Positions 10,588-27,642 of a stretch of DNA of 47,011 bases are shown piece after piece. The stretch comes from Marmoricola sp. (lineage in GTDB: Bacteria > Actinomycetota > Actinomycetes > Propionibacteriales > Nocardioidaceae). The translations under genes were made by a program, and so were the position numbers. Position 1 is the first letter of the stretch. Each line of letters starts with the position of its first letter. The notes beneath the pieces were generated by a model, which searched no databases, was not told the DNA's origin, and was given only the letters and a program-made list of their open reading frames with translations. Location: assembly GCA_025965315.1 (NCBI GenBank), contig JAOPXD010000166.1:1-47011 (forward strand), given 5' to 3'.

Positions 10588-13500
10588 GGAGACGGAGGCC
10601 CTTGCTGGTGGCGACGAAGCCTGCGGATTCGAGGGCGGTCCGGATCGCTTCGCTGCCGGCACCGAGGATGTTCGCGCCGTCGGCCTTCTCGACCGTGAGC
10701 TTCCCCAGAGCGCCGCGGCGGACCGCGGTGCCGAGGGCGTCGATCGCTGCGGCGGTGACGTCGTCGTCCTCGGTGAAGGTGAGCAGGGTGCGACCGCCGC
10801 GCTCGACGTACAGGGCGAGGTCGCCCTCGACCAGGACCACGATCGCGCCGGCCTTGCGGCCCGGACGGTGGCCGCCTTCCTGGACGGGCCACGGGAGCGC
10901 AGCGCCGTACGGGTTGGCGGGGTCGGTCGCGGCCAGGGTGACCGCCTCGAGCTTCTCGGGAGGGGTGAGCCTGACGTGGGTGCGGAGCCGGTCGATCGCG
11001 CCCGCGGTCCCGAACTGGGCTGCGCCGAGCCCGTCGACGAAGTACCCCCGTCGTGCCCGGCCGGCGTCCTCGAAGGTCGCCAGCACCCGGTACGCCGCGG
11101 CGAAGCCGCCGGGAGTGCGCTCGCTCATGACCGCACCTCGGGTGACGACGCCGTGCCGGTCGAGCAGTCCCTCGGCGGCGGCGTGTGCGCGCCGGGTGGT
11201 GTCGGTCTCGCGCTCGGGCAGCAGGAACCAGCGCCCGGCCATGTCCGCGGGCCCGCTGCGGGTGGGCATCGGGGCTCTCGACCTGCCGCCCGTGGTGACC
11301 CGCGCCCGTGGCGGCGTACGGCGGGAGCGGTGGCTGGTGCTCCCGGACCGGGTCAGTGCCCGCAACGGCGCGAGGGTGTCGTTGCCGACGTGTCCCGACC
11401 AGACGAGCTCCCACACCAGTGCAGCCAGCGCAGCGTCATCGCTCGAGGTGACGAGCTGCCCCAGCCCGCGGAAGAAGTACGCGCCACCACCAGCGAGCGC
11501 GTCCAGCACCGCCTGGTGGTCGGGTCCGAGGTCGGTCGCGTCGACGTCGGGCAGCGTCAGGCTCGCCGCATCCGCAAGGTGCAGCGAGACCCAGCCGTCG
11601 GCTCCGGTGATGCCGCCGTGCCCGGCCCAGAGCACCTCGCCGGCAGCGGTCAGCTCGTCCAGGAAGGCCGGCTGGTAGTCGACCACCCGGCTGGGCAGCA
11701 CCAGCGACTCCAACGCCGACGCCGGGACGGCACAGCCCGCCAGCTGCTCGATCACCGCGATCACCCCGTCGGGACCACGCAGGCCGCGCGAGCCGGTCCC
11801 CGGCGAGACGACGTGCTGCCAGGCCGGCAGGAACCGGCCGAGGGCAGCGGGATCGACGGGCTCGACCTCGTGCCGCAACCGGGCCAGCGACCGGCGGCGC
11901 AGCTTGCGCAGCACCTCGGCGTCGCACCACTCGCTGCCGGTCCCCGAGGGGCGGAACTCACCTTCGAGCACCCGACCCTGGGCGCCGAGCCGGAGCAGCG
12001 TCTGCCGCGCGACGGCGGGCCCGAGACCGAGACGCGCGGCGACGTCGCCGGTGGTGAACGGGCCGTGCGTACGGGCGAAACGGCCGATCAGGTCGCCGAG
12101 CGGATCGGTCACCGGGTCGGTGAAGGCCTCGGGCGTCCCGGCCGGGATCGGGACCCCGAGCCCGTCGCGGAGCCGGCCCACGTCCTCGACGACCGCCCAG
12201 CGTTCCTCGCCGCCGATCCGGACCTGGACGACCCGGCGGGCGTCGGCGAGCAGGGCGATCGCTTCGACGACATCGGCTGTGCAGCGTTCGGCGAGCTCGG
12301 CGGTGGACAGCGGCCCGATCATCCGGATCACGTCGACCAGGCCCTCGGCGTCACGGGCGCGACGGTCGGGATGGGTCCTCTGCAGCTCGGCCTCGACCTC
12401 GGCGAGCACCTCCGGGTCGAGGAGCTCGCGCAGCTCGGCGCGGCCGAGCAGCTCGGCGAGCAGGCCTTGGTCCAGGGTCAGCGCGGCGGCCCGGCGTTCG
12501 GCGATCGGGGAGTCGCCCTCGTACATGAAGGCGGCGACGTACCCGAACAGCAGCGACTGCGCGAACGGCGAGGCCCGGGTGGTCGAGACGTCGACGAGCC
12601 GGACCCGGCGTTCGGCGATCCTGCGGTGCAGCGCGACCAGGGCCGGGACGTCGTACACGTCCTGGAGCACCTCGCGCACGGTCTCCAGCACGATCGGGAA
12701 CGACGGGTAGCGCGAGGCGACCTCGAGCAGCTGCGAGGACCGTTGCCGCTGCTGCCACAGCGGCGAGCGCCGGCCGGGGTCGCGGCGGGGGAGCAGCAGC
12801 GCCCGGGCAGCGCACTCGCGGAACCGAGCGGCGAACAGCGCCGAGCCGCCGACCTCGGTAGTGACGATCTGCTCGATCTCGTCGGGCTCGAAGGCGATCA
12901 GCTCCGCGCCGGGCGGGTCCTGGTCGGTCTCCGGGATCCGCAGCACGATGCCGTCGTCCGCCGCCATCGCCTGGGCGTCGACGCCGTACCGCTCGCGCAG
13001 CCGCGCGTTGATCGCCAGCGCCCAGGGAGCGTGCACGGGCGTCCCGTACGGCGAGTGCACCACGATCCGCCAGTCGCCGAGCTCGTCGCGGAAGCGCTCG
13101 ACGACCAGCTGCTGGTCGTGCGGAACGGCGTTGGTCGCCTCGCGCTGCTCGTTGATCAGCGCCACCAGGTTGCCGGCGGCCCAGTCGTCGAGCCCGGCGT
13201 CCCGGGCCCGGGCGAGCGCCGCTTCGGGCGGCATCACGGCGACCTCGCGGACGAACGCACCGATCGCCTCACCGAGCTCGGCCGGACGGCCCAGCGCGTC
13301 GCCGGTCCAGAACGGCAACCGGCCGGGCTGGCCCGGTGCCGGAGTGACCAGGACCCGGTCGTGGGTGATGTCCTCGATCCGCCAGGTGCTGGTGCCGAGG
13401 GTGAACAGGTCGCCGACCCGGGACTCGTAGACCATCTCCTCGTCGAGCTCGCCGACCCGGGCTCCGGTCGAGGAACCGACCAGGAAGACGCCGAACATGC

Positions 13501-15415: not shown

Positions 15416-16462
15416 ATGGCAGGATTGTCGAACGTGCCTGCGCGCACGTCGCTACGAGTTCCCGACGACGGTGAAGAGGACGTCCCGCGGCGGATCGTGG
15501 CGAAGCAGTCGACCCAGGACCTGGTCTTCACGCACGGCGTCCGGTCGATCGGCATGCTGGTGCTGGTGATCGTCGGCTCGATCGGTGTCTTCCTGGGCGT
15601 CCAGGCCAGGCCGACCTTCCGGCACTACGGCTGGAGCTTCTTCACCGAGTACCGCTGGCTGCCTGCGCAGGACATCGTCGGCATCGCCGCAGCCATGGTC
15701 GGCACGATCGAGGTCGCCATGGTCGCTCTGGTGATCGCGTTCCCGCTCTCGTTGCTGACCGCGCTCTTCATCTCCGACTGGGCGCCGGCCTGGCTGAAGC
15801 CGCTGATGGTCCGGCTGATCGACATGATGGCCGCGGTGCCGGGCATCGTCTTCGGCCTCTGGGTGCTGGTGTTCATGCAGCCGCACGCTACCCACGTCGC
15901 GCACTGGATCAGCAAGTACTTCGGCTGGATCCCGATCTTCAAGGTGCACACCGACGTCAACTACCCGATCTGGAACCAGGCGCCCGGCTACCCGTCGTAC
16001 GAGGGCTCTGCGTTCATCGCCGGCATCGCCGTCTCGATGATGATCTTCCCGATGGCCACGGCCGTGATGCGCGAGGTGTTCTCCGAGGCCCCGGCCGGCG
16101 AGAAGGAAGCCGCGCTCGCCCTCGGCGCCACCCGGTGGTCGATGGTCCGCACCGTGGTGATCCCGTTCGGCCGCAGCGGCATCATCGGCGGCACGATGCT
16201 CGCCCTGGGCCGCGCGCTCGGCGAGACCATCTCCGTACTCCTGATCATCTCCGAGGCATTCAAGATCAAGTGGAACGTGCTCGAGTCGGGCACCGCGACG
16301 ATTGCCGAGGTGATCGCGTCCAAGTCCAAGGAAGCCACCCCGGCCCAGCTGTCCGCGCTACTCACCGCCGGCTTCGTGCTTTTCCTGATGACGCTGCTGA
16401 CCAACGTGATCGCAGCGTCGATCGTCTCGCGCGGCCGTAGCGGAGCGGGGACAGAGATATGA
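15416..16462 (+). CDS. pstC: Phosphate-type ABC transporter permease PstC
   Basis: 348 residues, preceded by AAAGGA. After a hydrophilic N-terminus of about 35 residues come six predicted TM helices, including SIGMLVLVIVGSIGVF, and the BPD_transp_1 EAA-type loop EKEAALALGATRWSMVRTVVIP with GRALGETISVLL. With PstA it forms the membrane channel of a Pst importer. It is the first gene of an operon whose next four genes overlap by 1-4 bases. The EAA loop is intact, so it should couple to PstB. Confidence 0.93.
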   Translation: MAGLSNVPARTSLRVPDDGEEDVPRRIVAKQSTQDLVFTHGVRSIGMLVLVIVGSIGVFLGVQARPTFRHYGWSFFTEYRWLPAQDIVGIAAAMVGTIEVAMVALVIAFPLSLLTALFISDWAPAWLKPLMVRLIDMMAAVPGIVFGLWVLVFMQPHATHVAHWISKYFGWIPIFKVHTDVNYPIWNQAPGYPSYEGSAFIAGIAVSMMIFPMATAVMREVFSEAPAGEKEAALALGATRWSMVRTVVIPFGRSGIIGGTMLALGRALGETISVLLIISEAFKIKWNVLESGTATIAEVIASKSKEATPAQLSALLTAGFVLFLMTLLTNVIAASIVSRGRSGAGTEI

Positions 16463-17571
16463 GCATCATGACCGCCCGGCACGCAGCCCCGCCGGCGCCG
16501 GAGCCGGAGTCACCGATCCGGACCGACGACGACGTCGAGGTCATCCGGCGAACCCGCCCCCGTACCAGCGACGACGACCTGATCCTGGTCGGCGCGGTGC
16601 TGGGCTCGCTCGGCACCACCTGGCTGCTCTACGAGCAGGTGCTCCCGTTCTCCGGCTCGCTCGGCTTCTTCGTCTCCTGGTACCTGGTCTTCCTGGTCTT
16701 CTACGCCGGGCTGACTGCGATCACCCGCCCCCGGGCGGTCGTGGTCGACCGGGTGATGACCTCGCTGGTCGTCGCCGCACCGTGCGTGGTGGGTCTTGCC
16801 CTGGGCAGCACCGTGGTCGTCACCCTGGCCAAGGGCATGGGCGCCCTGGTGCACGTGAACTTCTTCACCCACGACATGTCCGGGGTCCGGCCGAGTGACG
16901 CCTACAGCGCGGGCGGTGCGCTCGCTGCCATGGTCGGCACCGTGATCGAGGTGTCCATCGCCGTCGCCATCGCGCTGCCGCTCGGCGTGATCACCGCGGT
17001 CTACATGTCCGAGGTGGGTGGTCGCGGTGCCCGGGTGGTGCGCACCATCGTCGAGGCCATGACTGCGCTTCCCTCGATCGTGGCCGGTCTGTTCATCTAC
17101 ACGATCTTCATCGTCAACCTGCAGATGCAACGCTGCGGCCTGCTGGCCGCGCTGGCGCTCGCGGTGATGGGCCTGCCGATCATGGCCCGCGCCAGCGACG
17201 TGGTGCTGCGGGTGGTCCCGGGAGGCCTGCGCGAGGCGTCGTACGCCCTCGGCGCCGGCAAGCTCCAGACGGTCTGGCGCGTGGTGCTGCCGACGGCCCG
17301 TCCGGGCTTGGCCACCGCACTGATCCTCGGTGTCGCGCGGATGGTGGGGGAGACCTCGCCACTGATCCTGACCTCGGGAGCGTCGACGTTCCTGAACTGG
17401 GACCCGCTGCACAACCCGATGAACTCGCTCCCGCTCTACATCTACAACGCCGTCAGCTCGGGCGAGCCGCGCTTCGAGGTGCGCGGCTACGCCGCGGCCG
17501 TCGTGCTGCTGGCGATCGTGCTGACGTTGTTCCTGCTCGCCCGACTCGTTGCCCGTGGAAGGACCCGCTGA
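16459..17571 (+). CDS. pstA: Phosphate-type ABC transporter permease PstA
   Basis: 370 residues, starting within ATGA shared with the pstC stop. It is longer than usual because of a charged cytoplasmic head of about 40 residues. The permease core shows VGTVIEVSIAVAIALPLGV, AVYMSEVGG, MTALPSIVAGLF and the EAA loop REASYALGAGKLQTVWRVVLP, then GVARMVGETSPLILT. It pairs with PstC. Its TGA overlaps the ATG of the downstream PstS-like gene by one base, tying the permease to a binding protein. Confidence 0.93.
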   Translation: MSIMTARHAAPPAPEPESPIRTDDDVEVIRRTRPRTSDDDLILVGAVLGSLGTTWLLYEQVLPFSGSLGFFVSWYLVFLVFYAGLTAITRPRAVVVDRVMTSLVVAAPCVVGLALGSTVVVTLAKGMGALVHVNFFTHDMSGVRPSDAYSAGGALAAMVGTVIEVSIAVAIALPLGVITAVYMSEVGGRGARVVRTIVEAMTALPSIVAGLFIYTIFIVNLQMQRCGLLAALALAVMGLPIMARASDVVLRVVPGGLREASYALGAGKLQTVWRVVLPTARPGLATALILGVARMVGETSPLILTSGASTFLNWDPLHNPMNSLPLYIYNAVSSGEPRFEVRGYAAAVVLLAIVLTLFLLARLVARGRTR

Positions 17572-19238
17572 TGAGGACCCATCTGGCCCGGAGGTCCGCC
17601 GTCGCGCTCGCGCTGCTGGTGGTCGCACTGATGAGCCCCGCGGCGTACGGCGCTGCCGAGAGCGTTGACGTGTCGGCCAAAGCCAGCCATGCGCTGATCC
17701 AGGGCTCCGGCTCGAGCTGGGCCGCGAACGCGATCAACCAATGGGTCGCCGACGTCGCCAACCAGGGCGAGCAGGTGGTCTTCACCGCGAACGGTGCCGC
17801 CCAGGGCCGGAAGGACTTCGCCAACAACGCCAACGACTTCGGTGTCTCCGACGTGCCGTTCCTCGGTAAGGACCCGACCACGGGCCAGGCCGACACCGCC
17901 CAGGGCCGAGGCTTCGCCTACCTTCCGATCGCCGCCGGCGGTACGTCGTTCCCGTACCACGTCGAGGTGGCCGGCAAGCTGGTCCGCAACATCCGGCTCT
18001 CCGGCGAGACCGTCGCGAAGATCTTCACCAGCAAGATCACCAACTGGAACGACCCGGCCATCACCAAGGACAACGACGGGCACGCGCTGCCCTCGATCCC
18101 GATCATCCCGGTGGTGCACTCCGAGGGCGCTGGCGTCACCAACCAGTTCACCCGGTGGCTGTCCAAGGAGTACCCGTCGATCTGGGCGCCCTGCAACGGC
18201 GGCATCAACGCGCAGACCCAGTACTACCCGCTGAACTGCGGCAAGTCCTCGGGCAACGAGAAGGCCCAGTCCGGCTCGGACGGCGTCATGAACTTCATCA
18301 AGAGCGCCGGCGCGAACGGCTCGATCGGCATGGAGGAGTACTCCTACCCGCTGCTCTCGAACTTCCCCGCCGCCAAGCTGCTCAACAAGGCCGGCTACTA
18401 CACGCTCCCGACCCAGTACAACGTCGCGGTGGCACTCACCAAGGCGGTCATCAACAACGACCCGACCTCGCCGAACTATCTGACCCAGAACCTGGACAAC
18501 GTCTACACGAATCCCGACAAGCGCACCTACGCGCTCTCGTCCTACGTCTACGCGATCATCCCGACCGATGCGAACGACAGCCGGATGACCACGACGAAGC
18601 GGCAGACCGTCGCCGACTTCCTGTACTACTCGATCTGCCAGGGGCAGTCCGAGATCGGCCCGATCGGCTACTCCTCGCTTCCGGTGAACCTGGTCTCCGC
18701 CGGCTTCACCCAGATCGGCAAGCTGAAGAAGGCCGACAGCAAGGTGGACCTGACCAGCCGCAACGTGAGCACCTGCCACAACCCGACGTTCATCGCCGGG
18801 CACCCCAACGAGAACCACCTCGCCCAGATCGCTCCGGAGCCCCCTGCCTGCGACAAGATCGGCGCGGAGCCGTGCGCGGCCGGCGTGGGCGCGTTCAACG
18901 CCAACTCGAGCAACCCCACCAAGGACGGCGCCTCGTCGAACGCGGCCGGCTCGGGGGCGGGCACCGGGACCGGCACGGGAACAGGAGCCGGGACCGGGAC
19001 CGGGTCGGCAGCCGATCCGGGGTCGGCCGCGGCCGGGAACGACCTCGGCCTCGGCACGACGGGCACTGGCGACACCGCCACTGCCGGCGCCGCGGTCGCG
19101 ACCACCGTCGACCCGGATGCGAACTCCGGCCCGTCGTCGATCCTGACCATCCTGCTGGTGCTGCTGTTCCTGCTGGTGATCGCGGTGCCTGCGGGCATCG
19201 GGCACTGGGTCGTACGCCGAGGAGGGCCGGTCTCGTGA
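17571..19238 (+). CDS. Membrane-anchored PstS-like substrate-binding protein
   Basis: 555 residues, longer than ordinary PstS. Signal peptide at 1-28 (ALALLVVALMSPAAYGA). The PstS fold is clear: IQGSGSSW (44-50), FGVSDVPF (90-97, Asp94 as in the phosphate loop), RLSGETVAKIFTSKITNWND (142-161) and GSIGMEEYSY. However, the loop that in PstS reads RxDGSGT is HSEGAGV (183-189), so the Arg, Ser and Thr that bind phosphate in E. coli PstS are replaced. A Gly/Thr/Ala linker (about 440-515) leads to a C-terminal TM helix (about 523-543) and a basic end, so it is tethered outside the membrane rather than lipidated. Ligand specificity may differ from phosphate. Confidence 0.88.
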   Translation: MRTHLARRSAVALALLVVALMSPAAYGAAESVDVSAKASHALIQGSGSSWAANAINQWVADVANQGEQVVFTANGAAQGRKDFANNANDFGVSDVPFLGKDPTTGQADTAQGRGFAYLPIAAGGTSFPYHVEVAGKLVRNIRLSGETVAKIFTSKITNWNDPAITKDNDGHALPSIPIIPVVHSEGAGVTNQFTRWLSKEYPSIWAPCNGGINAQTQYYPLNCGKSSGNEKAQSGSDGVMNFIKSAGANGSIGMEEYSYPLLSNFPAAKLLNKAGYYTLPTQYNVAVALTKAVINNDPTSPNYLTQNLDNVYTNPDKRTYALSSYVYAIIPTDANDSRMTTTKRQTVADFLYYSICQGQSEIGPIGYSSLPVNLVSAGFTQIGKLKKADSKVDLTSRNVSTCHNPTFIAGHPNENHLAQIAPEPPACDKIGAEPCAAGVGAFNANSSNPTKDGASSNAAGSGAGTGTGTGTGAGTGTGSAADPGSAAAGNDLGLGTTGTGDTATAGAAVATTVDPDANSGPSSILTILLVLLFLLVIAVPAGIGHWVVRRGGPVS

Positions 19239-22003
19239 CGCGCCTGCGCAGGGCTGGCTACGCGGTGGCCGCGATCGGCGTGGCGATGAGCGGGATCGGG
19301 TTCTCCTCGCCCGCCCCGGCCGTGACCCGGCCGGTGGCGACCGCTTCGGTCGCCACCCGGGCCGGCACCACTGCGGTGTCGAAGACCGAGACCGTTGTTC
19401 GCGAGGACATCGCCGCCGACGGCTCGACCACCTCGGTCGACCGGCGCACCATCGGCCTCAAGGTGTCCGACACCACGAACCTGCGGGGGCGCCAGGAGCT
19501 CGACGTCAGCTGGACCGGGGCGCACCCGACGGGTGGGCTGGTCAGCGACGTGAACTCGGCTGCCGGCGTCAACGAGGAGTACCCGTTCGTGCTTCTGGAG
19601 TGCCGCGGTGTGGACTCCACCAGCGTGCCCGCCTCCCAGCGGATCAGCCCGGAGACGTGCTGGACCCAGACCTCGGTCGAGCGCTTCAACAGCAACCTGA
19701 ACACCCAGTACCCGGCCTGGCGCTCGGACGCCCACGAGACCGACGCGCACCGGCAGCGGGTCGTGGACGCGCCGAGCCCGCGGCCGTCCGGTTGCACCCG
19801 GGCCGCGTCGGCCGAGCGCTGGATCCCGATGGTCGGCGTCGACGGCACCGTCTACCCGGGCGGCCCGCTGGGCTGCGGAGGACAGGCGCCCGAGGCCTCC
19901 AACATCGGCGGCACCGGGCTGCCCAGCAACGCGACGTACGGGATCACCGGCACCGACGGCAAGGGCAGCGCCCAGTTCAGCGCGTGGACCGAGGACGAGA
20001 ACGCCACCCTGGGCTGCAGCAGCTCGGTGAAGTGCTCGCTGGTCGCCATCCCGGTGAACGGGATCAGCTGCGACGGCTACGGCACCAAGCTGCCCGCCGC
20101 CGACCAGCCGGACCCGGACACCGGTGCCGACGCGCAGAGCACCTGCGAGGCGCCGGACGTCTACCGCGCGGGCCAGTTCGCTATCTCCGGGACCCAGCCG
20201 AACCTGGCCACCTCGGGCGCGCTGTGGTGGTCGGCGTCGAACTGGCGCAACCGGATCACCGTGCCGCTGTCCTTCGCGGTCTCGGCCAACGTGTGCTCGG
20301 TGGTCTCCAAGGACAAGCCGCTGGAGATCTACGGCTCGACCCTGATGAGCCAGGCCACCGCGCAGTGGCAGCCGAAGTTCTGCACCGACAAGAGCCTGTA
20401 CCCGTTCGTGCACGTCCAGACCTCCGACTCCAGCGCCCGCACCTTGCTCCAGGTCGGCAACATCAACGCCGCGTTCAGCAGCCGCAGTCCGGACGGCGGG
20501 TTCACCCGGCCGACGGTCCAGGCGCCGGTGGCGGTGACCGGGTTCGCGATCAGCTTCGTCGTCGACGGCTCCGACGGGCAGCCGGTCGCGAACCTCAAGC
20601 TGGACCCGCGGCTGCTGGCCAAGCTGCTCTCCGAGTCCTACCCGGCGAACGCGATCGGAAAGGGCGCCGACCCGGCGCTCGCCGACAACCCGGTCAACAT
20701 CACCGAGGACCCGGAGTTCCAGGCGCTCAACCCCGGCCTGCCGCAGTACACCGCCAAGGAGTCCGCCGCGGCCCTGCTGACGCTGTCCTCGGACGCCGAC
20801 ATGGTCTACGCGCTGACCAGCTACATCAACGACGACGCGGACGCCCGCGCCTTCCTGGACGGGAAGGCGGACCCGTGGGGGATGGTGGTCAACCCGGCGT
20901 ACAAGAACGTCTCGCTGCCGACCTACTCCTGGCCGCTGCAGGACACCAACAACGCGGACGCGGCCTACATCGACGGCGGCAACAACCCCTGCTACAGCCA
21001 CAGCCCGAGCGCCTACCTGCCGCTGATCTCCAACCCGACCGCGGTGATCTCGACGATCGTGCTGAACATGCAGTACGGCATCTCGAACGTGAACACCGAG
21101 TGTCCCAACGGCGACCCCACCGACGTCTCCACCCTCAAGCTGCAGATCCAGGGACGGCAGCAGCCGGGCTCGCGGTTCCTGCTGGGCGTGGTCCCGCTGA
21201 GCTCGGTGGCTCGCTACAGCCTGTCCGCGGCCTCGCTGCAGGCAGGTCGGGCGGATTCGACGGTCGGCGACCAGAAGGCCGACGCGGCCAGCGCCGTCAA
21301 GGCCCGGAGCTACGTGGCCAGCAACAATGCCGGGCTGAAGGCAGCGGCCGCGCTGTTCACCGCGGACAAGGCCGCCAAGACCTGGACGGTCGACTACGAC
21401 AAGCTGGCCACCGACGCCGGCAAGACCGCCTATCCGGGGACGTTGCCGGTCTACACCCAGATCCCGACCAAGGGGCTGGACAAGGCCGACGCGAAGAACC
21501 TGGCGGGCTTCCTGTCCTACGTGATCGGGACCGGGCAGGTCCCCGGGCTCGAGAACGGCCAGCTGCCGCCGGGCTACCTCCCGCTGACCAAGGCCAACGG
21601 ACTGGCTGCCGAGGCCGGCTACACCACCCGGGCCATCGCCGCGGTCGAGCAGCAGAAGGGCTTCGTGCCGTCCCTGGACGCCGCTGACGACGCGTCGGCG
21701 CCGAACAACCCCAGCGGGACCAGCCCAACCGGCCCCGGCATCACCTCGCCGTCCCTGCCGGGGACCGGGTCCGACCCAGGTCGCACCCAGACCGGGCCGA
21801 AGGCGGAGGTGACGCCGGAGACGACCACGGCGTTCCGGACCGTCGGCGCGCACTCGGCGCTCAGCCGGTTCGCGCTGCCGATGGTGCTGCTGCTCTGCCT
21901 GCTGCTGGGCTCCGTCGGCGTAGTGATGCGGTGGTTCCCGGTGCTGATCAAGGTGGCCACGGACGGGACCGGGTCCCTGCGGAGCTGGCGGGGCAGGTCG
22001 TGA
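19235..22003 (+). CDS. Giant membrane-anchored PstS-like surface protein (922 aa)
   Basis: GTG 19235 overlaps the previous stop (GTGA). A signal peptide (about 1-33) is followed by about 840 extracellular residues and a C-terminal TM helix (about 879-898) with a short basic tail. An N-terminal Cys-containing beta-rich region of about 300 residues has no family I recognise. The second half has degenerate PstS features: IYGSTLMSQATAQWQP, then VTGFAISFVVDG, LKLDPRLLAKLLSESYP and GFLSYVIGTGQ. The phosphate loops are not conserved. Paired Cys residues suggest disulfides. It probably works with the neighbouring anchored binding protein and sortase-like protein; the role is inferred from position. 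Confidence 0.82.
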   Translation: MTRLRRAGYAVAAIGVAMSGIGFSSPAPAVTRPVATASVATRAGTTAVSKTETVVREDIAADGSTTSVDRRTIGLKVSDTTNLRGRQELDVSWTGAHPTGGLVSDVNSAAGVNEEYPFVLLECRGVDSTSVPASQRISPETCWTQTSVERFNSNLNTQYPAWRSDAHETDAHRQRVVDAPSPRPSGCTRAASAERWIPMVGVDGTVYPGGPLGCGGQAPEASNIGGTGLPSNATYGITGTDGKGSAQFSAWTEDENATLGCSSSVKCSLVAIPVNGISCDGYGTKLPAADQPDPDTGADAQSTCEAPDVYRAGQFAISGTQPNLATSGALWWSASNWRNRITVPLSFAVSANVCSVVSKDKPLEIYGSTLMSQATAQWQPKFCTDKSLYPFVHVQTSDSSARTLLQVGNINAAFSSRSPDGGFTRPTVQAPVAVTGFAISFVVDGSDGQPVANLKLDPRLLAKLLSESYPANAIGKGADPALADNPVNITEDPEFQALNPGLPQYTAKESAAALLTLSSDADMVYALTSYINDDADARAFLDGKADPWGMVVNPAYKNVSLPTYSWPLQDTNNADAAYIDGGNNPCYSHSPSAYLPLISNPTAVISTIVLNMQYGISNVNTECPNGDPTDVSTLKLQIQGRQQPGSRFLLGVVPLSSVARYSLSAASLQAGRADSTVGDQKADAASAVKARSYVASNNAGLKAAAALFTADKAAKTWTVDYDKLATDAGKTAYPGTLPVYTQIPTKGLDKADAKNLAGFLSYVIGTGQVPGLENGQLPPGYLPLTKANGLAAEAGYTTRAIAAVEQQKGFVPSLDAADDASAPNNPSGTSPTGPGITSPSLPGTGSDPGRTQTGPKAEVTPETTTAFRTVGAHSALSRFALPMVLLLCLLLGSVGVVMRWFPVLIKVATDGTGSLRSWRGRS

Positions 22004-22917
22004 CCACCACGATCCACGAGCCGCGGACCGTCGTACGGCAGGAGCCGCCGAGATCCGACGGTCCGCCGCACCGGTCGCTGACCGGCATCAGGGTCGTGGT
22101 CTCCCAGCTGCTGATCGTGATCGCGCTGATCACTGGATGGGTGCTGCTCTACCTGGTCGTGTTCAGCGGCTTCGAGCAGAGCCATGCCCAGCACCGGCTC
22201 TACAGCCAGCTCCGTACCGAGCTCGCCCTGGGCGAGGCTCCGACCGGGGCGCCGATCGACACCGGCGCGCCGGTGGCACTCGTATCGATCCCGCGGGCCG
22301 GGGTGAAGAACCTGGTCGTTGTCGAGGGCACCGCGGCCAAGCAGCTCCAGCAGGGACCTGGCCACCTGCGCGGCTCGGTGCTGCCGGGCCAGCACGGCGT
22401 CAGTGTGCTGCTCGGTCGGGCGCTCTCCTTCGGTGCTCCCTTCGGCTCGCTGGACAAGCTCCGTGCCGGCGACACCATCAAGGTCATCACCGGTCAGGGC
22501 AAGTTCACGTACGTCGTCACCGACGCCCGGCGCAAGGGCGATCCGGTGCCGCCGGCGCCCGCGGACAAGGACGGCCGGCTGACCCTGATCACCGCGCGCG
22601 GGTCCGGCCCGTTCGGACGGTTGGCGCCCGACAACGCGTTCTACGTGGACGCGACCCTGTCCGCCAAGGCGGTGGGGGCGGGCCCGGTGACCGGCACGGT
22701 CGCGGACGAGCAGGCGCTTACCACGCACGTCAGCACCGGCACCCTGGCGCTGCTGGCACTGGCCCTGCAGCTGCTGATCCTGGCGATGGTCCTGACCAGC
22801 TGGGCCCGGGTCCGCTGGTCCTCGCTGGCCGCCTGGATCGTCGGTACGCCGATGGTCCTGGGCTGCCTCTGGGTCGTCTCGTCGCTGGCGAGCCAGCTTC
22901 TTCCGAACCTGGTCTGA
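22000..22917 (+). CDS. Catalytically dead sortase-fold membrane protein
   Basis: 305 residues from GTG 22000 (GTGA overlap). TM helix at about 33-55, sortase domain at about 90-222, then two C-terminal TM helices (about 247-267 and 276-300). The domain follows sortases closely: GPGHLRGSVLPG, GAPFGSLDKLRAGD, FTYVV, RLTLIT. The catalytic His of AGHR is Arg140 (LLGRALS), the Cys of TLxTC is Ala199 (LITAR), and the C-terminal Arg position reads PDNAF. All three active-site residues are missing, so it cannot transpeptidate; a scaffolding or binding role is inferred. No LPxTG-like substrate is encoded nearby. It is the last gene of the pstCA operon. Confidence 0.85.
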   Translation: MTTTIHEPRTVVRQEPPRSDGPPHRSLTGIRVVVSQLLIVIALITGWVLLYLVVFSGFEQSHAQHRLYSQLRTELALGEAPTGAPIDTGAPVALVSIPRAGVKNLVVVEGTAAKQLQQGPGHLRGSVLPGQHGVSVLLGRALSFGAPFGSLDKLRAGDTIKVITGQGKFTYVVTDARRKGDPVPPAPADKDGRLTLITARGSGPFGRLAPDNAFYVDATLSAKAVGAGPVTGTVADEQALTTHVSTGTLALLALALQLLILAMVLTSWARVRWSSLAAWIVGTPMVLGCLWVVSSLASQLLPNLV

Positions 22918-22986: not shown

Positions 22987-23190
22987 AATGATGAGATTCA
23001 GGCTGCAGTGCGAGCTAGGCAGTGGGGCGGATCGGGCCGCCGCGTCGCTTCGTGGGCAGCCCTCGTGGGCGCCCTGGTCCTGTGCCGCCCGTACCTGCAC
23101 CCGCACAGTTCCTGACCAGACCTGCAGCACCCCGACCACCGCCGCCATGTCCGCGTGACGGCAGCTCTCCACCCACGAAAGGCAGAACCC

Positions 23191-24426
23191 ATGTCGAACA
23201 GACGACTCGCCGTCGGCGCCTCGTTGCTCGCAGCCGTCATCGCCGGCGGTCTCGCGGCCGGCCAGCTCCCCGCCAACGCCGATGCTGCTCCGCAGCCTCA
23301 GGACGTCGTCGGTGTGGGCTCGGACGTCATGCAGAACGCGCTGAACTTCCTTTCCGACGGCTTCGGGGTGGACCCGGGCTACAACAGCGCGGGCAACAAG
23401 AACCGGCTCTTCAGCTTCGACGCCACCGGCGACGCCAACGGCCGCAAGGCCGGTACCGACCCGGCCCTGAGCCCCGACGGCCACACCTCGGGTGCCCTGA
23501 ACCCGACGATCATCCTGCGCGCAGGTACCAGCCCGGTGCAGCGTCCCAACGGTGGCTCCGTCGGCCTCGCGGCCCTTCTGGCCGACGGCCACACCAACAA
23601 CGCCGACGACGAGATCAACTTCGCCCGGAGCCCCAACCTGCCGACGGCCACCCAGCAGACCAACGCGCAGAAGACGGTCGCCAACGGCGGCCTGGGCAGC
23701 GCCCTGCACTCGGTGCAGATCGCGTCCGACGTTGACTACATCGCTACCGCCACGACCACCAACGCCCCGTCGCACCTGACCGGTACCGACCTGGTCAACA
23801 TCTACAACGGCACCTACACCACCTGGAGCCAGGTCCCGGGCTACGACGGTTCGGACGGCACGGCGACCATCAAGCCGCTGATCCCGCTGACCGGTGCCGG
23901 CATGCGGACGATCTTCCTGAACGGCCTCAAGCAGTTCAACGGCGGCAACGCCGTGACCGTCGCGGCCTCGGTGACCCAGGTCCAGCAGAACGACCCGACC
24001 GCTATCACCGGCCTGACCTCGGCCGCTGACAAGCTCAACGCGATCGTTCCGTTCCCGCTCGGTCGCTACACCGAGCTCGGCAACGGCTACTTCCTGAACC
24101 CGGACACGGCCTACAACGCGAACCCGACGCTGGCGGAGACGCCCCTGACGACCGCAGGGATCAAGCTGATCACCAACGGCACCACCGGCGCGACGCCGAC
24201 GGCCTGGTCGGTGACCTTTCCGTACTACATCATCTTCCGGGACACCGCCCTGAACGATGCTCCCTGGCAGCCCGGCGGGACCCTGAACTGGGCCCAGACG
24301 CTGTTCGCCAGCGCCGGCGGCAGCCCGGCACCGTTCGTGAACACCGCCCCCGGTAAGGCGCTGCTGAACGACGCCGGTGTGACCCCGACGTACAACGATC
24401 TGGGTCTGACCACCTCCGGGTCGTGA
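23191..24426 (+). CDS. Secreted PstS-like substrate-binding protein
   Basis: 411 residues from ATG 23191, preceded by GAAAGG. Signal peptide at 1-30 (GASLLAAVIAGGLAAG...ANADA), with no lipobox and no C-terminal anchor, so it should be released or held by other proteins. PBP features: VGVGSDVMQNALNFL, INFARSPN, LTGTDLVNIYNGTYTTWSQ and GTLNWAQTLF. The loop that is usually SDGSGTRTIF reads LTGAGMRTIF (233-242). This is the PstS-like extracytoplasmic binding fold with an altered ligand loop. It begins the second block of the cluster and is followed by a hairpin. Confidence 0.85.
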   Translation: MSNRRLAVGASLLAAVIAGGLAAGQLPANADAAPQPQDVVGVGSDVMQNALNFLSDGFGVDPGYNSAGNKNRLFSFDATGDANGRKAGTDPALSPDGHTSGALNPTIILRAGTSPVQRPNGGSVGLAALLADGHTNNADDEINFARSPNLPTATQQTNAQKTVANGGLGSALHSVQIASDVDYIATATTTNAPSHLTGTDLVNIYNGTYTTWSQVPGYDGSDGTATIKPLIPLTGAGMRTIFLNGLKQFNGGNAVTVAASVTQVQQNDPTAITGLTSAADKLNAIVPFPLGRYTELGNGYFLNPDTAYNANPTLAETPLTTAGIKLITNGTTGATPTAWSVTFPYYIIFRDTALNDAPWQPGGTLNWAQTLFASAGGSPAPFVNTAPGKALLNDAGVTPTYNDLGLTTSGS

Positions 24427-24523: not shown

Positions 24524-25189
24524 ATGAGCAGCTCCACCATCGCGACGCCCGCCACCGGGCCGAGCTCCCCGGCACCCGCCTCGCGCGGGCGCCAGGTGCT
24601 CATCGGTGTGGTCGTGCTGGTGATCCTCGCGATAGTCGCGGCGGTGCTGCACCTGCGCTCGGGCGGGGACAGCAAGGTCCCGTACAGCGATGTCCGGTCC
24701 TCCGGTGCCCTCACCCTGTGCGGCACGAACGGGAAGCCGGTCACGTCGGGCTCCACCAAGGCCGCGCCGTTCATCGGCCGGGCCGTGGGCGCCACCGCTG
24801 CCCAGGGCTCGGCCGCCGGTGCCGGTCGGATCGCCACTCTGTACGCCTTCCAGCCCCGGCAGGGAGCCGAGACCGAGGAGTGGAGCGGCCAGTTGCTCAC
24901 AGCGGCGTCGACGTACACCAACGTCAAGCACCCGATGGCGCAGGCGACCAAGGCCGACACCGCTCTGCGGGCGTTCCTGATCGCCTTCCCGCCCCGGTGG
25001 GACGGGTTCGTCCAGCTCCGGCTCTACCTGGCGGCACCGGGCGCCGGGATCGCGGCGACCTACGACACCGCGAACATCCAGATCCACGGCGACACCTGGA
25101 AGCTCGTCGGTGCCGCCGGCACCGCGAGCTGCACCGATGGTGACGCGACGTCGAACGAGACCACTGCCGGCAACGGCCCCACCCCCTGA
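24524..25189 (+). CDS. Membrane-tethered surface protein, domain shared with the next gene
   Basis: 221 residues. A Ser/Thr/Pro-rich cytoplasmic head of about 25 residues and one TM helix (about 27-44, VLIGVVVLVILAIVAAVLHL) precede an extracellular domain. The start has GAGGAA upstream. The domain (about 52-205) has VTSGSTKAAPF, WSGQLLTAASTY, FPPRWDGFVQLRLY and IQIHGDTWKLV. The next protein has matching VTSGST/ITSGST, WSG..TAAS.Y and VITGNTWSLY motifs in the same order, so the two carry one homologous domain. I know no family for it. A membrane receptor or base for a surface structure is possible. Confidence 0.78.
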   Translation: MSSSTIATPATGPSSPAPASRGRQVLIGVVVLVILAIVAAVLHLRSGGDSKVPYSDVRSSGALTLCGTNGKPVTSGSTKAAPFIGRAVGATAAQGSAAGAGRIATLYAFQPRQGAETEEWSGQLLTAASTYTNVKHPMAQATKADTALRAFLIAFPPRWDGFVQLRLYLAAPGAGIAATYDTANIQIHGDTWKLVGAAGTASCTDGDATSNETTAGNGPTP

Positions 25190-25220
25190 CACATCAGATG
25201 CGCAGATGAGAGGCAACACC

Positions 25221-26732
25221 GTGACCAGCTACCGACCCAGAACCCTCCTGGCGGCGACCGCAGCCTTCGTGGCGGCCGCGGCCGTCACCACAGGCCTGGT
25301 CGTCACCTCGGGCGCCACCGCTGACCCGTCGACGACGCCGCCGTGGCAGACCGCCGCCGCGAAGGACCCGCACCAGGTCGGCACGCTGTCGTTCTACGAC
25401 GCGTCCGGCAACCCGATCACTTCGGGCAGCACCACGACGGCGCCGTTCGCGGCGTACGCCGTGGCCTCGAACGCGGTCCGCTCCGGTGACGACCACGCGG
25501 TCCTCTACGGGTACGCCGCGAACTCCGAGGACGTCACCACCGACCCCACGCCGGTCGTCAAGGTCGGCGACTGGTCCGGTGCCGAGATCACCGCAGCCTC
25601 CGCGTACCCCGCCGCGGGCGCACCGGCCGGGATCAGCGCGACGCTCCCGGTCGCCAAGGGCAGCAGCAGCGACCTGAAGCTCTCCGACCTGAAGGCCGAC
25701 TTCCCGAACACCTCGTCGGTCACCGCCTACCAGGGCGTCTACGAGATCCGGATGCGCACCGCCAAGGCGGGTGTCAGTGCCCCGTCCTCAGCCGACTACG
25801 CCGTCGCTGACATCGTGATCACCGGCAACACCTGGAGCCTGTACGGCTCCGGCACGGTGAAGACCGACACGACCACGACGGCCACGATCCCGACGACCGG
25901 CACCTACGGCACCGGGTTCGACATCCCGGTCACCGTGACCGGCGCTGGTGTCGAGCCGACCAGCACGGTGACGCTGAAGGACGGTACGACGTCGATCGGC
26001 GCTTCCGAGGTCCTCGACAGCACCGGCCACGCGACCCTCCACGTCGGTGCGACTGCGCTGGCAGCCGGCACGCACACGCTGCACGTCCTCTACAACGGGG
26101 ACACGGCGTACAACTCCAGCAGCTCCACGAGCACCGTGGTCACGATCGCCAAGGCCGGGAGCTCCGTCACCCCGACGGTGCCGACCAAGGCGACCTACGG
26201 GACGTCGTTCCACGTCTCGGCGCACGTGGCCGGACCGGCAGGGTCGACCGCGACCGGGAGCGCTTCCCTCAAGCAGGGAAGCACGACGCTGTACACCGCC
26301 AACCTGGTTGGCGGAACCGCGACGTTCACCGTGGGCGGCACGAAGCTGGGCGTCGGCTCGCACGCGCTGACGGTGTCCTACGCCGGATCGACGTCGCTCA
26401 ACGCGAGCTCGTCGACACCGAAGTCGGTCGTGGTCGGCAAGGCGGTCGGCCACGTCGCGAACGGGCTGAGCCCGAAGTCGATCAAGCACACCAAGAAGGC
26501 CAAGCTGACCGTCACGGTCACCGCAACGGGTGTGACCCCGACCGGCACCGTGACGATCTACGACGGCACCAAGGTGATCGGCAAGGTGAGCCTGACCGCA
26601 GCCAAGAAGGGCAAGTTCACCTTCACGCTGCCGAAGCTGAAGAAGGGCTCGCACAAGATCCACGCGGTCTACGGCGGCTCGTCGACGGTCGGTTCTGCGA
26701 AGGGCGCGACCGTCACCCTGAAATCCACGTAG
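25221..26732 (+). CDS. Secreted protein with three bacterial Ig-like domains
   Basis: 503 residues from GTG 25221, chosen because GAGAGG lies at SD spacing; ATG 25206 in frame is the alternative. Signal peptide at about 1-35. Residues about 40-210 form the domain shared with the previous gene (ITSGSTTTAPF, WSGAEITAASAYP, VITGNTWSLYG). Three Ig-like repeats follow (about 220-312, 313-408, 409-503), each with a TYGT/KSIK opening, a G(T/S)ATLKDG-type strand, G(T/S)H(T/A/K) near the end and (L/V)xYxG. The last repeat is Lys-rich. There is no anchor motif, so it is probably an extracellular stalk or adhesive component. Confidence 0.85.
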   Translation: MTSYRPRTLLAATAAFVAAAAVTTGLVVTSGATADPSTTPPWQTAAAKDPHQVGTLSFYDASGNPITSGSTTTAPFAAYAVASNAVRSGDDHAVLYGYAANSEDVTTDPTPVVKVGDWSGAEITAASAYPAAGAPAGISATLPVAKGSSSDLKLSDLKADFPNTSSVTAYQGVYEIRMRTAKAGVSAPSSADYAVADIVITGNTWSLYGSGTVKTDTTTTATIPTTGTYGTGFDIPVTVTGAGVEPTSTVTLKDGTTSIGASEVLDSTGHATLHVGATALAAGTHTLHVLYNGDTAYNSSSSTSTVVTIAKAGSSVTPTVPTKATYGTSFHVSAHVAGPAGSTATGSASLKQGSTTLYTANLVGGTATFTVGGTKLGVGSHALTVSYAGSTSLNASSSTPKSVVVGKAVGHVANGLSPKSIKHTKKAKLTVTVTATGVTPTGTVTIYDGTKVIGKVSLTAAKKGKFTFTLPKLKKGSHKIHAVYGGSSTVGSAKGATVTLKST

Positions 26733-26774: not shown

Positions 26775-26805
26775 GTAGGCCCCCTTGGCAGGAGGAGACC
26801 CACCC

Positions 26806-27642
26806 ATGACTGAAGTTCTCGAATCCCCGATCGGCGCGGACACCATCGCCGTGCCGGAGCACGTCGGCCCAGCCGGGCTGGAGGCTCACAAGATCTCCGC
26901 GTGGTTTGGCCAGCGCAAGGTGCTCGACCGGGTGTCGCTCGACATGGCGCCAGGTCAGGTCACAGCGCTGATCGGCCCGTCGGGCTGTGGCAAGTCGACG
27001 TTCCTGCGGATCCTCAACCGGATGCACGAGCTGGTCCCGTCGGCGTCGCTCGCTGGTGGGGTCCTGCTCGACGGCGTGGACATCTACGACCCGGAGCGGA
27101 AGCTCACCGACGCCCGTCGGCAGATCGGCATGGTCTTCCAGAAGCCGAACCCGTTCCCGGCGATGTCGATCGGGGACAACGTCCTGGCCGGGATGAAGCT
27201 CACCGGCACCCAGGTGGCGAAGTCCGACCGGGAGGCCCTGATCGAGGAGAGCCTGACCCGGGCCGGCCTCTGGACCGAGGTCCGCGACCGCCTCAAGACC
27301 CCCGGCTCCACGCTCTCGGGTGGTCAGCAGCAACGGCTCTGCATCGCTCGCTCGCTCGCCGTACGGCCGCGGGTCCTGCTGATGGACGAGCCGTGCTCGG
27401 CGCTGGACCCGACCTCGACGCGGGTGGTCGAGGAGACCATCGCCGAGATCTCCTCCGACGTGACGATCGTGATCGTCACCCACAACATGCAGCAGGCGGC
27501 GCGGGTCTCCGACCAGTGCGCCTTCTTCCTCGCAGCGCACGGAACGCCCGGCGTGATCGTCGAGCACGGCCCGACCGATGCGATGTTCGGTGAGCCGCAG
27601 GACAGCCGCACGGCGGACTACGTCAACGGACGGTTCGGCTGA
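26806..27642 (+). CDS. pstB: Phosphate-type ABC transporter ATP-binding protein PstB
   Basis: 278 residues from ATG 26806, with a strong GGCAGGAGGAG ribosome site; the earlier in-frame start overlaps that site. Walker A is GPSGCGKS (57-64), Q-loop GMVFQKPNPFPAMSI, signature LSGGQQQRLCIARSLA, Walker B VLLMDEPCSALDPTS and switch His in VTHNMQQAARVSD. The motifs NRMHELVP and QKPNPFP are specific for PstB. The long N-terminal extension (about 25 residues) is unusual. It should energise PstC-PstA encoded 9 kb upstream. No phoU follows. Confidence 0.95.
   Translation: MTEVLESPIGADTIAVPEHVGPAGLEAHKISAWFGQRKVLDRVSLDMAPGQVTALIGPSGCGKSTFLRILNRMHELVPSASLAGGVLLDGVDIYDPERKLTDARRQIGMVFQKPNPFPAMSIGDNVLAGMKLTGTQVAKSDREALIEESLTRAGLWTEVRDRLKTPGSTLSGGQQQRLCIARSLAVRPRVLLMDEPCSALDPTSTRVVEETIAEISSDVTIVIVTHNMQQAARVSDQCAFFLAAHGTPGVIVEHGPTDAMFGEPQDSRTADYVNGRFG

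Follow-up and report, generated by a model that had tools for sequence, protein, structure and literature searches.

The described systems closest to the locus analyzed here are the class E sortases (NCBIfam model NF033747, SrtE type), whose sorting signal is LAXTG, and the PstSCAB phosphate importer. We analyzed 47,011 nucleotides of Marmoricola sp. (GenBank assembly GCA_025965315.1, contig JAOPXD010000166.1, positions 1 to 47,011 of the forward strand; henceforth the window), in which a gene at 22000-22917 (+) encodes a sortase-domain protein that has none of the three catalytic residues. We refer to this protein as a pseudosortase. Its gene lies in an operon for an ATP-binding cassette (ABC) importer of the Pst type. 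With moderate confidence, we propose that the pseudosortase has long been without the catalytic triad and now serves a second Pst-type ABC importer as an accessory subunit, in which role it would dock membrane-anchored binding proteins. In the open-licence full texts of PMC, a scope that excludes subscription papers and preprints, we found no description of a sortase pseudoenzyme or of a sortase linked to Pst or phosphate transport. A report on five Actinoplanes missouriensis sortase candidates (PMC13251363) contains, in the available part of its text, no word starting with "catalytic" or "phosphate".

The reading frame at 22000-22917 is unbroken and codes for 305 amino acids. Its inferred GTG start overlaps the stop codon of the gene before it; the mechanical open reading frame starts at 21931. 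Using hmmscan, residues 96-198 matched the PF04203 sortase family with 54.1 bits (cut-off 26.6, E-value 1.7e-14), which places the protein in the sortase superfamily by descent. The best NCBIfam model was NF033747, at 72.1 bits and under its cut-off of 160; by this cut-off the protein is not a class E sortase. The closest PDB chains found with phmmer were 5go6 (E-value 2.6e-12) and 5go5 (E-value 4e-12), a pair with the titles "Putative secreted protein" and "sortase". These matches bear out the sortase domain reported in an initial annotation of the sequence. The domain (residues ~83-225) is predicted to be extracytoplasmic, between one N-terminal transmembrane (TM) helix and two C-terminal TM helices, and the protein ends in LLPNLV. 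AlphaFold2 modelling of the whole protein gave helices at 28-76, 246-272 and 275-304 with eight strands of at least three residues between them (mean predicted local distance difference test score, pLDDT, 61; predicted template modelling score, pTM, 0.47), and modelling of the sortase domain alone gave a pLDDT of 59 and a pTM of 0.63. The models are compatible with a sortase-like domain between TM helices, although they are not strong evidence by themselves; the predicted helices match the one N-terminal and two C-terminal helices that had been annotated along with an intact frame.

All three catalytic residues that a sortase enzyme requires are replaced in the window protein. The GH of the active enzyme lies opposite G139-R140 in the phmmer alignment to PDB, and the alignment with class E sortases places A199 at the Cys site and A213, within the motif PDNAF, at the Arg site. 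The initial annotation had read the same three changes; the alignments confirm them, and they are common to the family and thus not due to chance. An alignment slip of the His against a neighbouring Arg was ruled out, as the active G-H-R and the pseudosortase G-R-x are equally spaced from the G.PF anchor. We also ruled out a shifted catalytic Cys, which would require a Cys in the domain of at least some of the 65 aligned members, none of which has one. Because, in addition, the sole Cys among the 305 residues of the window protein (Cys289) sits in the last predicted TM helix, no other Cys can replace the catalytic one.

We searched for relatives of the pseudosortase. A first scan of named genomes returned nine, from Actinosynnema, Rhodococcus rhodnii, Kibdelosporangium, Kitasatospora (three), Streptomyces (two) and Nocardioides. 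Carriers of the gene include Kitasatospora purpeofusca NRRL B-1817 and Nocardioides marmorisolisilvae KIS18-7 (L013, L016). PF04203 was matched by 9/9 members scanned and NF033747 by 9/9 relatives scanned. Searched against 394 genomes of the class, a ten-member profile then matched 54, which represent 28 of the 137 genera; the matches in G311 and G022 are ordinary sortases. When the profile was searched in 396 genomes drawn from the phylum, 12 matched, including 8 outside the class. Pseudosortases occur in many families within the class as well as outside the class. A plasmid search returned one partial match, in an 11.85 Mb Nonomuraea record with no listed gene under it. The record titled Rhodococcus rhodnii (L011, JOAA01000016.1) encodes a pseudosortase that shares 96% identity with the Kibdelosporangium aridum protein, and the record is possibly mislabelled.

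Across 71 aligned rows, including the window, position 140 is Arg in 65, Lys in 4 and His in 2. The two His rows (L107 and L108) also have the Cys and the Arg; they are the weakest of the 71 first-round matches and represent ordinary sortases outside the operon. The counts and tree that follow use 65 pseudosortase rows, window included, with the fragments L018, L109, L110 and L111 left out. In these rows, Arg (61) or Lys (4) occupies the His site, and Ala (46), Ser (11), Gly (6), Val (1) or Thr (1) the Cys site. Arg is found at the Arg site in none of them, and Cys nowhere in the domain. Most orthologues thus do not have the triad: any triad residue is present in 0/65 members versus all three in 31/31 class E-type active rows, which are mainly the best matches to the class E model and therefore expected to have an intact triad. 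Excluded from the active rows were three that do not resemble class E (L002, L003 and L009), the duplicates L150 (of L001) and L136 (of L108), and a second, weak match in L126. L009, which lies in the same genome as the window (G000:C13:8165-8368 +), is a sortase-like domain (22 bits, under the cut-off) in which GK stands at the His site and IGL at the Cys site; it perhaps represents an unrelated second kind of inactive sortase. Among the eight genomes from outside the class, six have Arg or Lys at 140 and Ser, Ala or Thr at 199, beside pst genes, and two (L185 and L187) have the triad intact and are not beside pst genes.

The change to a basic residue at the His site is itself conserved, which goes beyond the initial annotation. 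Several further residues are conserved in the pseudosortase rows and not in the active rows, namely R72 (63/65), R124 (55/65), R177 (57/65), R193 (60/65) and a pseudosortase-specific GQG at 165-167 (G165 in 56/65, Q166 in 62/65 and G167 in 63/65). The Arg or Lys at the old His site, together with the four further conserved arginines, suggests a contact or passing cargo that may be acidic or phosphate-like. The C-terminus is also conserved. Of 65 members that are complete there, a set that differs from the 65 of the catalytic-site count, 61 have PN[LVIM] and 55 have LPN. We considered the LPN as a built-in mimic of a sorting signal and dropped this idea, as LLP is likewise found close to the C-terminus of the active L185 and L187. 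Because of this shared LLP, the C-terminal end seems to be older than the loss of catalysis.

In a tree computed without the catalytic columns, the 65 pseudosortase rows all fall on one side of one branch (Shimodaira-Hasegawa-like approximate likelihood ratio test, SH-aLRT, 99). Adding the rows of the eight genomes beyond the class gives 71 pseudosortase rows, again on one side (SH-aLRT 96), with L185 and L187 as their neighbouring active rows (98 for the branch that unites these two with the pseudosortase rows). The first row to branch within the pseudosortase group is L184, which lies beside pst genes in a genome outside the class. It has R140 and S199 and seemingly keeps the catalytic Arg (ASERLVV), and it probably represents an intermediate stage on the way to the inactive form. 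Both are quick trees that were not bootstrapped, and L186 sits on a long branch. The ratio of nonsynonymous to synonymous substitution rates (dN/dS, NG86 method) ranged from 0.05 to 0.41 in 18 of 18 pairs, which were hand-picked close relatives with shared members. These values are well below 1 and uphold the view in the initial annotation that the gene is not decayed. Together with the absence of the triad from all 65 members, they also support its proposal of a retained pseudoenzyme; the structural or binding role that it attached to this proposal is one that we infer.

That the surrounding cluster is a Pst-type importer operon had not been recognized in the initial annotation. A PstC-type permease (15416-16462 (+); TIGR02138, 229.6 bits, above the cut-off of 196.45) is followed by a PstA-type permease (16459-17571 (+); TIGR00974, 214.4 bits, above the cut-off of 193.45), and both of these cut-offs are curated. 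Next are a PstS-like binding protein with a long linker and a C-terminal TM anchor (17571-19238 (+); PF12849, 108.5 bits, cut-off 27; TIGR00975, 158.3 bits, under 205) and a large membrane-anchored protein of 922 amino acids, henceforth referred to as Big923 (19235-22003 (+)). The label PstS1 that we use for the PstS-like protein does not denote the M. tuberculosis protein of the same name. These four genes and the pseudosortase gene are chained by overlaps of 4, 1, 4 and 4 bases, with the starts of Big923 (from its 4-bp overlap with PstS1) and of the pseudosortase being inferred. Downstream of the pseudosortase are a PBP-like protein (labelled PBP3) with a signal-peptide-like N-terminus and no C-terminal TM helix (23191-24426 (+), start inferred, GTG at 23155; weak PF12849 match of 23.5 bits, under the cut-off of 27), a 221-aa protein with an N-terminal TM-like stretch (24524-25189 (+)), whose profile matches in 9/69 loci including the window, a bacterial immunoglobulin (Ig)-like repeat protein with a signal-peptide-like N-terminus (25206-26732 (+), start inferred; PF16640, 132 bits) and finally a PstB-type ATPase (26785-27642 (+); TIGR00972, 331 bits, just under the cut-off of 343.2).

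We examined whether this linkage recurs in 69 loci, which include the window and the paralogue in its own genome and leave out L107 and L108. At least one of PstC, PstA, PstS-like, Big923 and PstB is present in 67 of them; in the two remaining loci the upstream sequence is known only for 24 bases and 4.0 kb. For 29 well-flanked loci (at least 8 kb upstream and at least 6 kb downstream), Big923 was found within 9 kb in 29, PstB in 27, PstS-like in 26, and PstC and PstA in 17. We extended the upstream sequence of the 12 loci that had no PstC and PstA, 3 of which also had no PstS-like gene, and found the missing genes in 12/12. After this extension, PstC, PstA, PstS-like and Big923 are near the pseudosortase in 29/29 well-flanked loci. 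Two layouts recur. The pseudosortase gene either directly follows Big923, as in the window, or lies after PBP/Ig genes and before PstB. The latter is seen in L019, in the same genome (G000:C202:1-13962), with the order PstC, PstA, PstS-like, Big923, a PBP/Ig fusion, pseudosortase (11482-12513) and PstB. Three Kitasatospora loci and L015 have the gene order Big923-PstC-PstA-PstS-like-pseudosortase-PstB.

Big923 comprises an N-terminal part of unknown family, a PstS-like C-terminal half, and a C-terminal TM helix with a basic tail. It matched no Pfam family, by sequence or by profile, and its profile reached PstS-type chains at an E-value of 0.001 or better solely over the C-terminal half. Big923 therefore appears to be an undescribed family with a PstS-like C-terminal half. 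Its profile matches 53 of the 394 genomes of the class. When the ordinary-sortase genomes G311 and G022 are left out, 52 genomes have the pseudosortase; 49 have both proteins, 3 the pseudosortase alone (G015, G060 and G137) and 4 Big923 alone (G067, G069, G229 and G351), giving a Fisher p of 5.7e-54, a value that ignores kinship. In five of the seven single-partner genomes, a contig end truncates the locus or the partner is divergent. The contigs of G015 and G060 are ~3.5 kb long, G137 has a weak Big923 (51 bits) and G229 has the first part of a pseudosortase at a contig edge (36 bits). The G351 contig has 0.3 kb of sequence beyond Big923 and ends within an overlapping frame whose N-terminal TM-like stretch is compatible with a pseudosortase start, at a score of only 3.4 bits. 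Among the 34 listed genomes of the family to which the window belongs, 13 have both proteins, 21 neither (G311 counted here) and none has one alone. This patchy joint presence within one family is the pattern expected of a unit that is gained and lost together.

PstC-type matches above the cut-off occur at three loci in the genome of the window: the window itself, C202 (the second pseudosortase operon) and C129. At C129, PstS (228.8 bits, over the cut-off), PstC, PstA and PstB are together; as this set resembles an ordinary Pst importer, the pseudosortase systems are additional to it. We compared 45 PstS-like proteins with E. coli PstS at Phe11, Asp56, Arg135, Ser139 and Gly140, which we take to be phosphate-contact sites. 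Position 11 is Trp in 42 (3 gaps), position 56 Glu in 23, Asp in 18 and Ser in 2 (2 gaps), position 135 Arg in 34, His in 9 and Gln in 2, position 139 Ser in 42 and Ala in 3, and position 140 Gly in all 45. These residues make an oxyanion-like cargo likely for most members, and least securely so for the window. The window protein, unlike most relatives, has His, Ala, Gly and Val at 135, 139, 140 and 141. Because His, Ala and Val replace the Arg135, Ser139 and Thr141 of E. coli PstS, its cargo may differ from phosphate.

We weighed several alternative roles for the pseudosortase. One is an assembly chaperone that, outside the working transporter, binds the sorting signals or linkers of Ig/PBP surface proteins and delivers them to either an active sortase or the importer. 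In loci L055, L057, L058, L064 and L077, the pseudosortase is preceded, at a distance of ~4 kb or less, by an Ig-type gene whose product ends in LAQTG or LASTG followed by a TM helix and basic residues, and the genome of the window also encodes sortases with His and Cys in place (L001-L003, L007 and L008); both observations speak for this role. A sixth signal match, MPMTG in L060, is 7.5 kb away. However, the signal-bearing loci are just 5 of 71, four of them from one family, and the Ig protein of the window is not among the sorting-signal matches. C-terminal TM anchors are present in 45/45 PstS-like proteins and 51/55 Big923 proteins, yet an LPxTG- or LAxTG-like signal before the TM helix was found in 0/45 PstS-like proteins and 0/51 Big923 proteins with a C-terminal TM helix, where shuffled segments give up to 2.5 by chance. 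We consider the chaperone role unlikely. The statement in the initial annotation that the neighbouring proteins have no LPxTG-like signal accordingly holds for the C-terminally anchored proteins of the window and, across loci, for PstS-like and Big923, and fails for the Ig-type gene of the five related loci.

The basic residue in the old pocket could instead bind phosphate or a phosphoester, making the pseudosortase an anion sensor or gate of the importer. Arg or Lys at 140 in 65/65 rows, the new conserved arginines and the linkage to a phosphate-family importer speak for such a role, which we regard as rather improbable. That the protein is still an enzyme using other residues, such as Ser at the Cys site, is very improbable: Ser occupies position 199 in 11/65 rows, and L183, L184 and L186 combine Arg140 with Ser199, with L184 seemingly keeping the catalytic Arg, but 52/65 rows have Ala or Gly at 199, and His at 140 and Cys in the domain are absent throughout. 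The loss of the triad would also be expected of a decaying sortase gene carried along in the operon. We rejected decay on the dN/dS of the 18 pairs; the new conserved motifs, the spread over many families and beyond the class, and profile matches that list no inner stops leave it with almost no probability.

Under the explanation that we prefer, in which the pseudosortase is an accessory importer subunit, a sortase would once have served an Ig-type surface protein, then been taken into the importer, lost catalysis and come to bind partners. Its extracytoplasmic domain would sit beside the permease, with the former substrate groove holding, uncut, a segment of the PstS-like protein and Big923 or of the PBP/Ig partners, so that several binding proteins would be kept docked at one permease. 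More tentatively, the pseudosortase family of the Actinomycetota as a whole could be a structural subunit in a Pst-type importer with multiple binding proteins, the groove being a non-cutting clasp, with its basic residue at the His site, for holding binding proteins or directing anionic cargo towards the permease. Several observations weigh against assigning such a subunit role. The operon and co-occurrence data fit a stoichiometric subunit and an assembly factor alike, and we infer the physical interaction. The window PstS-like protein (17571-19238) has lost some phosphate-contact residues. PstB is not in the stretches examined at 2/29 well-flanked loci, and in L106, one of the 29, the pst genes are oppositely oriented, pointing away from the pseudosortase as they also do in L183, and Big923 is weak (51 bits). 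The contigs of G069 and G067 run 2.3 and 5.1 kb past Big923 without a pseudosortase gene, although the second layout can place the pseudosortase as far from Big923 as these contigs reach. Both AlphaFold2 models are only modestly confident (pLDDT 61 and 59).

If the explanation is true, proteins that score above the Pfam sortase cut-off, and would be labelled sortase on that ground, are not sortases, and phosphate-family ABC importers can include an additional, transpeptidase-derived subunit on the extracytoplasmic side. Together, the active sisters, the full pseudoenzymes and the likely intermediate, which has lost His and Cys but apparently not Arg, would allow the stepwise origin of a pseudoenzyme to be followed. 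Compared with the class E sortases, the pseudosortase has the same domain but lacks the catalytic His, Cys and Arg, has two additional TM helices at the C-terminus, scores 72 bits against a cut-off of 160 and lies in a Pst-type operon. The triad sortases L185 and L187, its nearest active relatives, have the same layout: the family profile matches them from 24 or 28 to 295 or 294 of its 297 positions, and LLP is near their C-terminus. They differ in that the His, the Cys and the Arg-containing site are intact, and PstC, PstA, PstS-like and Big923 gave no match in the stretches examined around them. With the PstSCAB phosphate importer, the window operon shares PstC-, PstA-, PstB- and PstS-type components, whereas it differs from PstSCAB in having several TM-anchored binding proteins and, as extra components, Big923 and the pseudosortase; in 42 of the 45 PstS-like proteins, Trp also takes the place of Phe11 of E. 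coli PstS.

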